NCBI GenBank assembly: GCA_029212965.1
Contig: JARGOV010000001.1
Span: 80,818 to 132,919 of the forward strand
DNA: 52,102 nt
Origin: Porticoccaceae bacterium
GTDB lineage: Bacteria; Pseudomonadota; Gammaproteobacteria; Pseudomonadales; Porticoccaceae
Direction of reading: 5' to 3'
Shown here: piece after piece, positions 36,978-52,031 of the stretch
Layout of the letters: the number at the start of each line of letters is the position of its first letter
Numbering within the stretch: position 1 is the stretch's first letter
Notes under the pieces: model-generated
The model's input: the letters and a program-made list of their open reading frames with translations, nothing else
Database searches by the model: none
Told to the model about the DNA's origin: nothing
Made by a program: the position numbers and the translations under genes

Positions 36978-38138
36978 TTAGTCTCGACCAATCGCTTTAG
37001 CCACTTCCCTTTGAAAGTGAATCAGCGCTGGTTCATTGCGACCAAAGGTGCTATGGCTAATTGCGCCACTGCTTAAACCTCTTTGAATACCCTCGACTCC
37101 GGGAATATCTTCTTCCAACACGGTACGTACCGCTAGGTCCATATTTCGCTCCCAGTGGTCTTTAGCCGAAGCTGTTTCAGCGGGTTCGGGAATATAGTAA
37201 TCCATCTGTACGATGCATTCGTTCGGCTTACCGTCAAGCGGGTAAGAGCGCCATAACTCAACGTGATCTCTTTGCATCACTAAACCTGAGTTGGGAAAGA
37301 GTAAATACACAAGCGCTGAGTCGGGCACAATATCCCAACTCTCTTTGGGTTGATCACGCTGTTTATCGATCGATTTGCGAATTACCGCCTCGCGCAGATT
37401 TTGCCCATAAGTATCAAGTAAGCACAGATTATGATGGAGCAATGGACCTACTGTAGTAGCGTGCAGTGGTGCAAAGTGATAGGCCTCGAGGAAAGTATCG
37501 AGCATTAGCTTCCAGTTCATTTTGCAATGTAATCGGCGTTGAGCATAAGGGTGGTAATTTTCAAACTGATAGCTCTGTAAATCTTCGACAAAGCCGTTAT
37601 TCAGCCCACCCAGTTGCGCGTCAATATCAAAGTCCTCACCAGCTGTCGGACACACCCAGATCATGCCGTATTTCTCTATCACCGGCAGCTTTATCAAACC
37701 ATGCTCCGCTTTATCAACGCCGGGGAAACTCACCTGATCAGGCACGATTTTAAGTGCACCAGTGAAGTCATAGGTCCAAGCATGGTAGGGGCAAGTCAGC
37801 CCTGATTGAGCACGACCACAACCCTTGGCTAATTGAGCACCACGATGTCGGCATGTGTTATAAAAAGCATTAATACCGCCCGTCCTGTCTCTTACTAACA
37901 GTATGGGGACACCAGTATCATCGTTGGTAAGAAAGTCGCCGACTCTGGGCAAATCACAGGAAAAAGCCACTAGTAAAGGGTATTTTTTAAAAAGTATATC
38001 TTTTTCTTGAGCGAGCCAGTCTTTGCAGGTATATGAAGCAACTGGGCTTAAATATATATTCTCAACCCGTGTTGTCTGTTTGTTATCGAGCAGCTCAAAG
38101 GCTCGCTCAACCATAGTAATACGCGTCTCTTTTTTCAT
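36978..38138 (-). CDS. Rieske non-heme iron oxygenase, alpha subunit
   Basis: 386 residues. The Rieske cluster ligands are Cys96 and His98 in CRHRG and Cys116 and His119 in CPYHAW. The mononuclear iron site is in DTFLEAYHFAPLH, with His221 and His226 and a bridging Asp/Glu nearby; the third ligand Asp would be in the region EEDIPGVEGIQRGL. The family hydroxylates or demethylates aromatic or alicyclic compounds using electrons from a reductase/ferredoxin. No beta subunit, ferredoxin or reductase gene is adjacent, so this is an orphan alpha subunit. No strong ribosome binding site is seen at 38138; an internal ATG nine codons in is possible. Confidence 0.9.
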   Translation of the reverse strand: MKKETRITMVERAFELLDNKQTTRVENIYLSPVASYTCKDWLAQEKDILFKKYPLLVAFSCDLPRVGDFLTNDDTGVPILLVRDRTGGINAFYNTCRHRGAQLAKGCGRAQSGLTCPYHAWTYDFTGALKIVPDQVSFPGVDKAEHGLIKLPVIEKYGMIWVCPTAGEDFDIDAQLGGLNNGFVEDLQSYQFENYHPYAQRRLHCKMNWKLMLDTFLEAYHFAPLHATTVGPLLHHNLCLLDTYGQNLREAVIRKSIDKQRDQPKESWDIVPDSALVYLLFPNSGLVMQRDHVELWRSYPLDGKPNECIVQMDYYIPEPAETASAKDHWERNMDLAVRTVLEEDIPGVEGIQRGLSSGAISHSTFGRNEPALIHFQREVAKAIGRD

Positions 38139-45714: not shown

Positions 45715-46590
45715 TTACTTCAGCTCCTGTACAACGTGCATACCTTCTACAGCCAAAGGCGCACCGGCATAGGCAAAGGCTGTCAGCATTAGTTCCTCTA
45801 GCTCTGCTTTGATTACTCCATGGCGTATAGCCGCTGGCACATGAATATGTAACTCTTCTGTTCTACCAAGGGCGGTCAAAACTGAGACAACCAGTAAACT
45901 TCGATCACGTCGCGATAATTCTGAGCGCGCCCAAACCTCTCCGAAGGCGAAATCAATTCCATAGGCGCCCAGGGGTCCGAGTTTACCAGCCATTGCGGTA
46001 ATGACTTTATCAGGGTCCGAGGCTGGATTACCTGACAGTTTAGCCATCACCGCTGCTCCGCGCTCACGTCGTTGAGCATTGGAGAACTTCTCTGCGGGGG
46101 ACAGTTTCCCATTTTCTGGAGCATGGCCAAGTTTAGAGAGTATTCGATTGGTTTCAGCCATGGCATCGAGTGCTCGGGGGAAGCCCGCATAAGCGGCGAC
46201 ATGGGTCATTATTTCTCGGATCTCGGTCGCTGTCAGCCCATGATTCAAACCACCAGGCACGTAATAACTGAGTTGGTTTGTTTGATGTAGCGTTGCGAGT
46301 ATGGTCAGCACAATCAGGTTTCGGTCGCGCTTACTTAAGCCGGGACGATTCCAGATATCACCCAGTACAAAATCTAGAGCAAAAGAACCCAGCGCGCCAT
46401 TTTCAGCCTCAAATTTTGCGGCCATTTTAGTAGCATCAGCCTGCCCAGTGAGCGAACCAAGAATGGCTATACCACGTGCTCGACGTTCTTCAAAATCTGT
46501 TGTGTCAGCATTAGACACTCCTGCACCCATTGCAATAGAAAGGTAAAAAATAGTAGAAAACAGAAATGTACACTTTAATTTATTAATCAC
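45715..46590 (-). CDS. Exported double carboxymuconolactone-decarboxylase-like protein
   Basis: 291 residues from GTG 46590 (AAGGTGG 5 bases upstream). The N-terminus is a signal peptide (about 5-28, CTFLFSTIFYLSIAMGAGVSN, probable cleavage before ADTTDFEERR). Two CMD domains follow: about 38-145 (RRARGIAILGSLTG, then LDFVLGDIWNRPGLSKRDRNL and EIREIMTHVAAYAGFP) and about 170-288 (RRERGAAVMAKLSG, FAFGEVWARSELSRRDRSL and ELEELMLTAFAYAG). Neither has the CxxC of AhpD peroxidases, so a decarboxylase- or lactone-type reaction or a binding role is likelier. CMD-family enzymes are normally cytoplasmic; an exported one is unusual. Confidence 0.82.
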   Translation of the reverse strand: MINKLKCTFLFSTIFYLSIAMGAGVSNADTTDFEERRARGIAILGSLTGQADATKMAAKFEAENGALGSFALDFVLGDIWNRPGLSKRDRNLIVLTILATLHQTNQLSYYVPGGLNHGLTATEIREIMTHVAAYAGFPRALDAMAETNRILSKLGHAPENGKLSPAEKFSNAQRRERGAAVMAKLSGNPASDPDKVITAMAGKLGPLGAYGIDFAFGEVWARSELSRRDRSLLVVSVLTALGRTEELHIHVPAAIRHGVIKAELEELMLTAFAYAGAPLAVEGMHVVQELK

Positions 46591-46636
46591 TTAAACCACC
46601 TTTTTTGTATTTTATTTAATCGTGTTAAAGTTGTTG

Positions 46637-47452
46637 CTAACGTGCAACGCGTAATTTAGCTGTCTGCCGCGAGAGGGCAACCAGATTGTCGGCACTATCC
46701 CAAATCATACCATCTTCATTTACCACGCCTTCAGTAATATAACTGGTTTTAAATTGACAGCGCAATGGTCCTGCACAGGGGCTGCGATGGATTTGCACTG
46801 ACATCTCTATAGTCGGCACTCTGCCTTTTGCTCCGTAAATAGCAAAGGCCGGCGGTGGCAAAGCATCACAAAACATCAGTACGCCAAACAAGTCAATATC
46901 TGCTTTGTCTTTAAATTCTTGCCAGCCTTTCCAAGTGGAATTACCGTCGGGGTTATTAATGAGTGCATCAATATTTTGGGGAGACAGGCGCTGAATCAGT
47001 CTGTCCCGAAGCTTAAGGTTCGGGGCATGTGGCATATCAACACAGTCGTCATAATTGGGCATGTCGGGAACACCCTTCTTCGTCAAAGTCTCACCATGGA
47101 GATCTTCAATATGTTGAAAGACACCAACCAATTGTATTTTTACCTCTCCGTTTTGAATCAGCTTGACCATTCCGTTGGACGTTGATTTACCGACCCGTAA
47201 GGGTTCAAACTCACAACGCACTGGTCCTGGTTCTGTCCGCGCCAGATAATAAGCCGTGACATTCAGTGGGTCACTGTGAGGCAAGGCTTCACCTAGTACT
47301 TTGGCGCCCAACGCCAAAGTGTAGCCACCATTGGGCACCTTGCCGATGCACCAGTCGGCCGAGAAGTCACTCTCCCACACACGATCATCAATTCTACGCA
47401 GTACCGTACTACGCGCAAATTCACTACCATTACTTTGTAAGCTGCCACTCAA
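46637..47452 (-). CDS. Double-hotdog acyl-CoA thioesterase family protein
   Basis: 271 residues from TTG 47452, with AGAGG 7 bases upstream. N-terminal hotdog: FSADWCIGKVPNGGYTLALGAKVL, where the GGY region forms the helix start; C-terminal hotdog near MSVQIHRSPCAGPLRCQF. It resembles the TesB-like thioesterase superfamily found in fatty-acid and sterol catabolism clusters. It could free CoA from ring-cleavage or beta-oxidation products (inference). Same strand and close spacing with the CMD protein downstream and the SDR upstream suggest an operon of three. Confidence 0.8.
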   Translation of the reverse strand: MSGSLQSNGSEFARSTVLRRIDDRVWESDFSADWCIGKVPNGGYTLALGAKVLGEALPHSDPLNVTAYYLARTEPGPVRCEFEPLRVGKSTSNGMVKLIQNGEVKIQLVGVFQHIEDLHGETLTKKGVPDMPNYDDCVDMPHAPNLKLRDRLIQRLSPQNIDALINNPDGNSTWKGWQEFKDKADIDLFGVLMFCDALPPPAFAIYGAKGRVPTIEMSVQIHRSPCAGPLRCQFKTSYITEGVVNEDGMIWDSADNLVALSRQTAKLRVAR

Positions 47453-47506: not shown

Positions 47507-48289
47507 TTAGTCGTAGACGAGGCCACCATCGACATTCCATGACTGGCCGGTGATATTTCTTGCTTCACTCGATGCGAGAAATATTGCCAAATCAGCAATA
47601 TCTTCTGGTTCATTAGAGCGTTTGATGGGAATAGTGCCATCAAATAGTTCGATAATTTCTGCCTCAGATTTACCCAATGTATGCATTTTCCCCTTTACCA
47701 CTTCATGGTAAAGCTCGGTGCGCGTGACCCCCGGGCAAATAGCATTAACATTGATATTTTCTGCGGCTAGGGTCGAGGCGGCTATCCGCGTCATTGCTAT
47801 AACTGCGCCCTTGGCTCCAGCATAAGCAATGTTGGAAGTGGATGGATAACCTTTGCCGGCGATCGAAGCGATATTGACGATACGCCCATGGCCCTGCTCT
47901 TTCATCACCCGGGCAACACTTTGCATGCAGAAGAACAAGCCTCTGGAACTTACCCCGTGTATCCAGTCCCAGTCTGCTTCACTCACTTCAAAAAAATCAA
48001 GGCTTCTCGTCACTGCTGCGTTGTTGACAAGAATGTCAATACTGCCAAAATGCTCTTTTGCAGTATTGGTTAGTGCTTCAATATCTGCAATTTGGTTGAT
48101 ATCCGTTTTGACAAATAAAGCGTCAGCCCCAGTGCTTGTTAACGCTTGTACTAATTGTTCACCACGTTGCTCATCGAGTTCTGCAACCACCACTTTTGCG
48201 CCCTCACGGGCATAGTGGCTAGCTACCGCCTTACCAATACCCCGCCCTGCTCCGGTGACGATAGCCACTTGCTGATTTAGCCTTTTCAT
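47507..48289 (-). CDS. Short-chain dehydrogenase/reductase (classical SDR)
   Basis: 260 residues. Cofactor motif TGAGRGIG (12-19); NNAA (89-92); catalytic Ser142, Tyr156 and Lys160 (YxxxK). NAD is suggested by the acidic Glu37-Leu-Asp in strand 2. The conserved Asn of the tetrad (usually V-N-x-x-G) reads VSSRG (113-117), so Asn is replaced by Ser, which may alter proton relay. C-terminus NITGQSWNVDGGLVYD is typical. It is divergent from the CMD gene at 48397 and upstream of the thioesterase and CMD genes. Confidence 0.92.
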   Translation of the reverse strand: MKRLNQQVAIVTGAGRGIGKAVASHYAREGAKVVVAELDEQRGEQLVQALTSTGADALFVKTDINQIADIEALTNTAKEHFGSIDILVNNAAVTRSLDFFEVSEADWDWIHGVSSRGLFFCMQSVARVMKEQGHGRIVNIASIAGKGYPSTSNIAYAGAKGAVIAMTRIAASTLAAENINVNAICPGVTRTELYHEVVKGKMHTLGKSEAEIIELFDGTIPIKRSNEPEDIADLAIFLASSEARNITGQSWNVDGGLVYD

Positions 48290-48396: not shown

Positions 48397-48771
48397 ATGC
48401 CAGATTCAGAAAAAAGAGAAAAGGGAATCGCATTCTTTAAAAAACTTACGGAAGGTGCTGCTAATCCACCATCCTTAAACAAAGGCGCAATGCCAGAGAA
48501 GTTTATTGATTACACACTTGAGCACCTGTTTGGTGATGTCTGGCAGGGTGAGGAATTAAACCTGACACAGCGCTCCTTGATCACCTGCACCATTCTTGTT
48601 GCACTAAACCGTGAAGCAGAGCAACGCATTCATTTTCCTGGCGCGAAGAATTTGGGTGTAACACGAGAACAGCTTGAAGCAATGATTACCCATGCAGCCC
48701 ACTATGCCGGATGGCCAGTCGCGGCCAGTGCTCTTCGCGTGCTGGCAGAGGTTTGGCCTGCGGAAGAATAA
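48397..48771 (+). CDS. Single-domain carboxymuconolactone-decarboxylase-like protein
   Basis: 124 residues with one CMD domain: KREKGIAFFKKLTEG, LEHLFGDVWQGEELNLTQRS, then EQLEAMITHAAHYAGWPVA. No CxxC peroxidase motif and no signal peptide, unlike the exported relative at 45715. AGGAG at 48383-48387 precedes the ATG. It is divergent from the SDR. Related small proteins act in aromatic and alicyclic acid breakdown, but the substrate is unknown. Confidence 0.85.
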   Translation: MPDSEKREKGIAFFKKLTEGAANPPSLNKGAMPEKFIDYTLEHLFGDVWQGEELNLTQRSLITCTILVALNREAEQRIHFPGAKNLGVTREQLEAMITHAAHYAGWPVAASALRVLAEVWPAEE

Positions 48772-48887: not shown

Positions 48888-50627
48888 CTAGCGTAAAAGA
48901 GAAAGACAAAGGGCTAAAAACAATAACCCTGATAAGGCTTGCCAAAACAATAACGGGTTAGCTTCAAGTAGTGCAGCACGCTGAGCCTCTTTATATTTTG
49001 GATTAGGCTTTTGAAGTTCATGTAGAAACTCAGAAACATCTTCATAGCGCAGCTCTGGGTTAAAGCGCAGGCCTTTCTTTACCGCACCATCTATCCAGAT
49101 GGGAATTAAGGGATTAATGTCGTAACAAGGAATATATTTGGTTTTTAAATAGGCTTTTGATGTACGACACGCCTCAAGTTTGCCACCAAAAGGAGGTACC
49201 CCAGTCAACATTTCGTAAACGATAACGGCCAGTGAGAAAATATCAGACTGCACGGTGCTTTTTGCCTTAAGCACCACCTCTGGAGCCGAATAAGCGGCAG
49301 TACCTAGTATACCTTGACTCTCTAAGGGCGTGGCAATTTCAGCAATTCCTTGGATATAACAGGAGCCAAAATCAATAATTTTAACCTGGCCATTGCGGTC
49401 AATAAGAATATTGCCTGGCTTGATATCTTGATGCAATGTTTCGCGGTTGTGGAAGGCTCTTATTCCCTTGACTATTTGTTGAACTAATAAAATAACATCT
49501 TGCACAGCAGGTTTAGGGTTTTCTTTTATCCAACGTTCCAGCGTAATTCCATCGATATACTCAGTGAGATAATACAAACACGATTTTGACTTATCGCTAC
49601 CGACCACTTTGGCGACATGGGGGTTGTTGATGCGGTTACCTATCCAGCTTTCCATCACAAAACGGTCAATATAAGCTAGATCGTCGTCAAAATTAACCGA
49701 GGGCGTTTTCATGCAATAGCGTTGGTTGTTGTCGACGTCAAAAACCAGGTATACCTGGCTGCGATTACTCGCGTGTAATTCGCGCTCGATACGATAGCCA
49801 TCAAGAATCATTCCCACTTCAAGAGTGGGAGGGAACGGTAAGGACGATAACTTTCGACTAATGTCATCAATACTTTGCTTGGGAAAACTCTCAACGCGCA
49901 AGATCTGGCAGCTTAAGTTGTCGCGGCTATTATTTTCGAGAGCGATTTCGACTAGGTTTGTACAACAAGCTTCGAAGGCTTGTTCTGCCGGTTCGCCAAC
50001 AAGCGCACCTAAAACGAAACGTAAGTCTCTATCTTTAACAAAGTCATGAATACCATCGGTGCTTAGAAAAAAGATGTCACCAATTTCAAGATCAACATTG
50101 CGATAATCGACATCGAGCTTTACGTCTAAACCCATAGCTCGAGCTAAATAAGACTGCTCTTCACTGATAAAAGTGGTGTGATCGCGGGTCAATTGTTCGA
50201 GATCATTGCCGCGTAAGCGATAAATACGAGAATCGCCAACATGAAAAATATGAGCAGTTTGTGACTTAAATATCACACTGCTGAAGGTACTAACATAACC
50301 TTTTTGAACGTCGCTAAAACTACGTCCCTGGCCGAATAGCCAGCGATTGAGGGCAGTCAAAACTTGGGTTGTGGATTTTTTCACACCCCAGCTATCGGGT
50401 GTCGAGTAATAGTCAGAGAGAAAATTATGCACGCAGGTTTCACTGGCTTCCTTGCCTGCTTCTGCGGCACTTACACCATCCGCAATTACGGCCACAGCAC
50501 CTTTATTTGCTAACGTCAGCCCTTGGGGAATACGGATGCCAATCGCATCTTCATTTTGTGGTTTAAGGCCGGCTACCGAGTGCTGAGCTACAGTAAAACT
50601 TAAGTGTTCTAGCGGTTGTTTTGACAT
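48888..50627 (-). CDS. PP2C phosphatase / Ser-Thr kinase fusion with C-terminal membrane anchor
   Basis: 579 residues from ATG 50627 (GAGG just upstream; a longer start at 50642 is possible). N-terminal PP2C domain about 15-260: ADGVSAAEAGKEASE, GDSRIYRL, STDGIHDFV, and DNLSC metal-site Asp residues. Kinase domain about 280-545: the start is LHASNRSQVYLVFD instead of a Gly-rich loop, Lys in YCMKTPSV, HQDIKPGNILI catalytic loop, IIDFGSCY for the metal-binding Asp, APEVV for the activation-segment end. A final helix, LLFWQALSGLLFLALCLSLLR, should anchor it in the inner membrane. Both active sites look complete, so it may phosphorylate and dephosphorylate the same target. Such fusions are often beside nitrate-uptake genes; none is here. 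Confidence 0.9.
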   Translation of the reverse strand: MSKQPLEHLSFTVAQHSVAGLKPQNEDAIGIRIPQGLTLANKGAVAVIADGVSAAEAGKEASETCVHNFLSDYYSTPDSWGVKKSTTQVLTALNRWLFGQGRSFSDVQKGYVSTFSSVIFKSQTAHIFHVGDSRIYRLRGNDLEQLTRDHTTFISEEQSYLARAMGLDVKLDVDYRNVDLEIGDIFFLSTDGIHDFVKDRDLRFVLGALVGEPAEQAFEACCTNLVEIALENNSRDNLSCQILRVESFPKQSIDDISRKLSSLPFPPTLEVGMILDGYRIERELHASNRSQVYLVFDVDNNQRYCMKTPSVNFDDDLAYIDRFVMESWIGNRINNPHVAKVVGSDKSKSCLYYLTEYIDGITLERWIKENPKPAVQDVILLVQQIVKGIRAFHNRETLHQDIKPGNILIDRNGQVKIIDFGSCYIQGIAEIATPLESQGILGTAAYSAPEVVLKAKSTVQSDIFSLAVIVYEMLTGVPPFGGKLEACRTSKAYLKTKYIPCYDINPLIPIWIDGAVKKGLRFNPELRYEDVSEFLHELQKPNPKYKEAQRAALLEANPLLFWQALSGLLFLALCLSLLR

Positions 50628-50643
50628 ATAACCTCGGCACATT

Positions 50644-51269: not shown

Positions 51270-52031
51270 ATGAGTAATACCTTAAACAGGGGACACGCAC
51301 TGGTAACCGGCGCAATTGGCGGTCTGGGTACAGCGATCGTTAAGCGGCTGATTGCAGCCGGTATTCCCGTGATCGGCACCGATCGTCGCGTCACAGATAT
51401 AGACCCCTGGATAGAAGCTGAACTTAACGACGAGCAGAAAGCTATGTTTACCGGCTATCCCCTTGATGTGGTCAAGGAAGAACAAGCCACTACTCTGGCC
51501 GATAAATTGTCAGAGGATGGCATCCATATCGCCTACCTTATCAACAACGCTGGTATTCAGGGCAACGCCAAACCTTGGGAGCTAGACTCAAAAACCTGGG
51601 ATCGTGTAATGGCAGTCAACGCCAACGGCACCTTTTATTTAACCCGTGCTTTCAGTAAGGCCATGGTTGATAAAGGTTTTGGTCGGGTCGTTAACTTTGC
51701 ATCGATGTATGCCTACCATCCCGGTGTCGGTCAGTCGCCTTATGCTGCTGCAAAAGCTGCTGTCACCGGCTACACCCGCTCAGTGGCACTGGATCTCGCT
51801 AAACATGGCGTAACCGTCAATGCCATTGCGCCGGGTATCATTTGGCACGAACGCCTGCGCGGCGTTCTGCCTCAGGACGAATTCGATAAAATGGAAGCTC
51901 GCGTACCTGCCGAGCGAGTTGGAAAACCAGAGGAAATCGCTGGGGTAGTGAACTTCTTCTGCTCCGAAGAATCCTCCTATGTCACTGGGCAAACCCTCCA
52001 TGTAAATGGTGGTCTTTACTTACCTGGCTAA
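51270..52031 (+). CDS. Short-chain dehydrogenase/reductase
   Basis: 253 residues. Cofactor motif TGAIGGLG (13-20); NNAG (92-95); the full tetrad Asn117, Ser145, Tyr158 and Lys162. Asp38-Arg39-Arg40 after strand 2 leaves NAD or NADP use open. The C-terminus ends YVTGQTLHVNGGLYLPG. It is only distantly similar to the SDR at 47507, so it probably has its own substrate; relatives include 3-oxoacyl reductases and alcohol or steroid dehydrogenases. Transcribed alone up to the window end. Confidence 0.93.
   Translation: MSNTLNRGHALVTGAIGGLGTAIVKRLIAAGIPVIGTDRRVTDIDPWIEAELNDEQKAMFTGYPLDVVKEEQATTLADKLSEDGIHIAYLINNAGIQGNAKPWELDSKTWDRVMAVNANGTFYLTRAFSKAMVDKGFGRVVNFASMYAYHPGVGQSPYAAAKAAVTGYTRSVALDLAKHGVTVNAIAPGIIWHERLRGVLPQDEFDKMEARVPAERVGKPEEIAGVVNFFCSEESSYVTGQTLHVNGGLYLPG

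Follow-up and report, generated by a model that had tools for sequence, protein, structure and literature searches.

A two-domain CMD-family protein with a predicted signal peptide in Porticoccaceae and its rhizobial counterparts

The window, the whole stretch of 52,102 nucleotides analysed from a Porticoccaceae bacterium (GCA_029212965.1, contig JARGOV010000001.1), encodes a two-domain CMD-family protein, here CMD2, whose export is well supported by its sequence and by those of its relatives. Most members of the widespread CMD family lack a tested function, and the exported two-domain protein is a real, conserved and fairly ordinary variant within it. The CMD2 gene and its parts are as follows, domain positions being contig coordinates less 80817.

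45715–46590, minus strand: CMD2, two-domain CMD-family protein of 291 aa with a GTG start (open reading frame, Pfam, orthologs)
46507–46590, minus strand: signal-peptide region, residues 1–28, predicted cleavage between SNA and D (by eye, small-x-small rule)
46596–46602, minus strand: Shine-Dalgarno-like AAGGTGG, 5 bases 5' of the GTG start (sequence)
46150–46377, minus strand: CMD domain 1, with Tyr110 at the PcaC histidine position (Pfam match)
45724–45954, minus strand: CMD domain 2, with His250 kept as in PcaC (Pfam match)

The leader of CMD2 (MINKLKCTFLFSTIFYLSIAMGAGVSNA, followed by D) had two lysines, an uncharged run of 22 residues and an end conforming to the small-x-small rule for signal-peptide cleavage sites. 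These features, together with leaders in 13 other loci, support the exported form proposed in the sequence-only reading.

PF02627 matched CMD2 twice, with a whole-protein E of 2.3e-31, and the score of 108.1 bits, against a gathering score of 23, places the protein in the CMD superfamily. An AlphaFold model built with 13 rows had a mean pLDDT of 79.2 and a pTM of 0.75; residues 1–28 were below 50, and confidence was lower in domain 2 and the linker than in domain 1, with averages of 55–78 over residues 161–220. Foldseek returned 4G9Q as the top solved structure (E 4e-9), followed by 2AF7 chains, and VIA-align gave Z 23.4 for 4G9Q (rmsd 3.3 over 224 residues) and Z 11.6 for 2AF7, consistent with the all-helical CMD/AhpD fold. 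The two domains first read from the letters were thus confirmed by the double PF02627 match and by a predicted structure like that of two-domain 4G9Q. The claimed absence of the peroxidase cysteines also held, as the sole cysteine of CMD2 is residue 7, within the leader.

Within the Porticoccaceae, 19 relatives were found at E <= 1e-30, in 15 of 112 genomes and 3 of 14 genera. Fourteen carried a leader (13 analysed in detail, one read by sequence), and a leader-bearing copy was present in 14 of the 15 genomes with a relative; G021 had two relatives only, both leaderless. The five leaderless relatives were L002, L020, L039, L078 and L079, one of them in the genome of CMD2 itself, and genus member G006 had no match at this threshold. 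The best 12-residue hydropathy was 1.50–2.97 in 13 leader-bearing rows versus 0.08–0.98 in four leaderless rows. Among the six genus members, mean identity was 26% over residues 1–28 and 87% over the remainder, the pattern expected of signal peptides. No hidden or broken leader was found in three frames of the 150 bases upstream of L020. At the same threshold, CMD2's own genome was the only match among 369 genomes of the class sample, and two further genomes matched among 398 of the phylum sample, one of them with a protein (L061) without clear start; with up to 6 candidates scored per genome, both counts are lower bounds. The own-genome paralogue (L055:8580-9395, contig C22) resembles CMD2 in having two CMD domains (48% identity), but has no leader and adjoins a Cupin_7 gene and, by eye, DsbA-like, luciferase-like and hydrolase-like genes. 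At L079, a 350-aa frame contained the start of a two-domain CMD protein, unknown bases and a further copy, either a tandem or an assembly gap.

Leaders were scored with a lipobox pattern of the PROSITE type. None of the six genus members had a lipobox, while five of the seven loci analysed in two other genera matched (L044, L046, L047, L048, and L049) and the leaders of L045 and L019 did not fit. The lipobox-like cysteine was at position 21 in all five matching loci, was followed by a linker in the alignment, and was the sole cysteine of the protein in L047, L048, and L049. From these sequences, we infer that the Cys21 proteins are probably membrane-anchored lipoproteins, and that the leader in the window's genus is a soluble-periplasm signal whose protein would be soluble.

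Export had been regarded as unusual for a CMD protein, a view that the comparison with 4G9Q did not bear out. The 4G9Q chain is that of Sinorhizobium meliloti pSymA (100% over the 99 residues queried); its gene in strain M162 (L093:2036-2815) has the annotated start MKRLIAPLMGVMMMTTSNAGAQQ, and the same frame is found in strain 1021. Like CMD2, this gene, named '4-carboxymuconolactone decarboxylase', encodes an N-terminal signal peptide (MKRLIAPLMGVMMMTTSNAGA, followed by Q) and two CMD domains (predicted-model fold match Z 23.4) without CxxC, the first with Tyr and the second with His at the PcaC histidine position. The solved construct comprises residues 12–259 and therefore begins inside the leader. 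The two proteins are only about 25% identical, however, and the neighbours of the 4G9Q gene differ (quinol monooxygenase-like, DUF2255, and aldo/keto reductase). Leaders were also present in four of eight other two-domain plasmid relatives (L080, a cupin fusion, L081, L084, and L087), the leaderless ones being L082, L083, L085, and L086; these eight were hand-picked from 60 listed of 676 matching records, so the proportion is not a rate. Export unique to the Porticoccaceae family was rejected on these grounds. A literature search, mostly at the level of result lists, yielded no paper recognised as describing an exported two-domain CMD protein. The excerpted text of PMC7699398 concerns a CMD-family AhpD in the biofilm matrix of Burkholderia multivorans that is marked cytoplasmic, and so does not help with CMD export; the protein in the excerpted part of PMC6180224 has CxxC and is hence not of the CMD2 type.

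In a 28-row tree with an arbitrary root and with long branches flagged by the software, the window's family, both leader-bearing and leaderless, formed one 20-row branch (98/99), and the other leader-bearing rows together with one leaderless row formed a separate 5-row branch (98/96). Within the window's family, 14 leader-bearing rows plus the leaderless L020 branched together at 98/98, L020 lying inside that branch; without L020 the support fell to only 51/26. Given this branching and the arbitrary root, the leader of the window's family may possibly have been gained independently of the rhizobial types, and repeated loss is likewise possible. A single small family holding two-domain forms that are exported, probably lipid-anchored or not exported would offer a direct way to ask why a CMD enzyme is moved to the periplasm. 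It also follows for annotation that the name '4-carboxymuconolactone decarboxylase' should not, in rhizobia or in this bacterium, be taken to denote a cytoplasmic pca-pathway enzyme.

The genes around CMD2 in the window are:

46637–47452, minus strand: acyl-CoA thioesterase-like protein, 4HBT_3 and 4HBT_3C, 46 bases 5' of CMD2 (Pfam)
47507–48289, minus strand: SDR1, SDR-family reductase, 54 bases 5' of the thioesterase gene (Pfam, NCBIfam)
48397–48771, plus strand: single-domain CMD-family protein, 124 aa, no leader, divergent (PF02627, 1.3e-18)
51270–52031, plus strand: SDR2, second SDR-family reductase, adjoining SDR1/CMD2 in several relatives (Pfam)

SDR1, the thioesterase gene and CMD2 share a strand and are separated by 54 and 46 bases, CMD2 ending the operon-like run. 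The thioesterase gene was directly upstream of CMD2 in 11 of 14 leader-bearing loci (not in L047, L019, and L076). SDR1 lay 5' of CMD2 on its strand in 10 of 13, all but L042, L050, and L047; this count leaves out L046, cut by a contig end. An enoyl-CoA hydratase-family gene was read on the opposite strand in L044, L047, and L049, and L047 additionally had an OYE-family gene, a TetR regulator, a MaoC-like pair and an acyl-CoA dehydrogenase. This neighbourhood suggests a CoA-type catabolic cluster of which the CMD2 gene is the steady member. The single-domain CMD protein is 36% identical to CMD2 residues 171–289, and its gene lies 1.8 kb from CMD2 on the other strand, and so is not in the CMD2 operon. 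It was full length and divergent in three of the five other genus members (L041, L042, and L043); L050 had a fragment, and near CMD2 in L040 none was seen. The leaderless single-domain relative described about 2 kb away is therefore real, but its designation as a partner is weak, the gene being divergent and full length in only those three members. At L050:4650-4763, only residues 87–124 of the single-domain protein were present and SDR1 was missing, the appearance of a decaying cluster end.

Alignment with an annotated PcaC (L088, Acinetobacter indicus) placed the PcaC histidine (ELRMH) at Tyr110 in domain 1 and at His250 in domain 2 of CMD2. His250 was invariant in 17 aligned rows, as were His257 and an R-R-D-R block, among proteins 40–85% identical to CMD2. 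Of 13 rows, at least 90% kept Tyr110, and the domain-1 residue differed among paralogues, being His in L039 and Asn in the own-genome paralogue L002; the rhizobial two-domain proteins read mostly had the same Tyr/His split, L080 having His in both domains. PcaC (TIGR02425) has the CMD fold, and its conserved histidine and W-R-...-R-S-L block recur in domain 2 of CMD2, but it is a one-domain protein without leader encoded in a pca cluster, whereas CMD2 has two domains and a leader. The NCBIfam PcaC model TIGR02425 matched CMD2 over two stretches with 130.8 bits, below its cut-off of 155.7, and CMD2 was not accepted as a true PcaC; the PcaDC and PcaCD models also matched below cut-off. No pca genes were seen beside CMD2 in the neighbourhood read in the window and relatives, where SDR, thioesterase, GST and enoyl-CoA hydratase genes were found instead.

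We tentatively propose, with confidence a little short of even, that CMD2 is a Sec-exported, periplasmic two-domain CMD enzyme whose substrate would be a small lactone or keto acid, converted by cysteine-free acid/base chemistry. The leader would be cleaved and the protein would sit in the periplasm, while homologues in most analysed loci of the two other genera would be membrane-anchored lipoproteins. Domain 2, with its PcaC-type histidine, would be the chief catalytic domain, with a PcaC-like reaction, either lactone isomerisation or decarboxylation, and domain 1, with Tyr at the histidine position, would have a structural or changed role; since the excerpted part of PMC3141380 describes the active site of carboxymuconolactone decarboxylase as not determined, catalysis by His250 is inferential. 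The substrate may be tied to the adjoining CoA-type catabolic genes, but three loci without the thioesterase gene and three without SDR1 speak against a cluster-linked enzyme, and the SDR, thioesterase and enoyl-CoA hydratase neighbours would be expected to depend on CoA and to work in the cytoplasm, a poor fit with a periplasmic step. Also counting against the proposal are the PcaC, PcaDC and PcaCD matches below cut-off, the varying domain-1 residue in paralogues, the leaderless L020 within the branch and the lower model confidence of domain 2 and the linker. The fuller scenario, in which a cytoplasmic two-domain CMD enzyme of the Porticoccaceae acquired its leader independently of the 4G9Q types, the protein is soluble or a lipoprotein according to genus, and a periplasmic lactone or keto-acid step supplies or clears the CoA cluster across the inner membrane, appears decidedly unlikely to hold as a whole.

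A serious rival, on balance unlikely, is that CMD2 is a non-catalytic periplasmic protein with a binding, stress or structural role, binding a hydrophobic or aromatic ligand. The mature chain without cysteine, the PcaC models under cut-off, the Tyr for His in domain 1 and the neighbours expected to act in the cytoplasm are all compatible with such a role; against it, the invariance of His250, His257 and the R-R-D-R block in 17 rows at 40–85% identity suggests an active site that has been kept.

That CMD2 is cytoplasmic in practice, through a start at the in-frame ATG21 or a leader that remains as an uncleaved anchor, is highly improbable. The annotated start is GTG, leaderless paralogues exist, and the signal peptide was judged from sequence features rather than by a predictor. 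However, AAGGTGG precedes the GTG, and no Shine-Dalgarno-like motif lies within 20 bases upstream of ATG21; since leaders occur in 13 other loci as well, a restart at ATG21, the later cytoplasmic start that had been named as refuting export, is unlikely. AAGGT was also found 5' of the start in four of the five other genus members, the exception being L041. In addition, the 14 loci carry leaders of the same character in many different sequences, and five have the lipobox-like Cys21.

AhpD shares the superfamily fold with CMD2 (1GU9, Z 12.5), but, according to excerpts from PMC3141380, it requires Cys-X-X-Cys. This motif with its proton relay was not found in CMD2; because the only cysteine, Cys7, lies in the leader and the mature chain has none, AhpD-type peroxidase chemistry is excluded. 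A periplasmic AhpD-like peroxidase or thiol-redox adaptor thus has an almost negligible probability, despite the common superfamily, the alignment of AhpD structures at Z about 12 and the response of two other Burkholderia cenocepacia CMD-family genes to H2O2 or NaOCl in the excerpted text of PMC2830190, as AhpD needs Cys-X-X-Cys (PMC3141380, same excerpts), mature CMD2 is cysteine-free, and, the leader or lipobox position apart, no Cys occurs in 11 of the 13 leader-bearing rows analysed (L043 has one at 202).

Elsewhere in the window, positions 48888–50642 (minus strand) encode a protein that combines PP2C phosphatase and Ser/Thr kinase parts and whose C-terminal tail is hydrophobic; copies of it, 86–90% identical, were present in L050 and, truncated where the locus ends, in L042. 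Positions 36978–38138 (minus strand) hold a gene for a Rieske ring-hydroxylating oxygenase alpha subunit-like protein of 386 aa.
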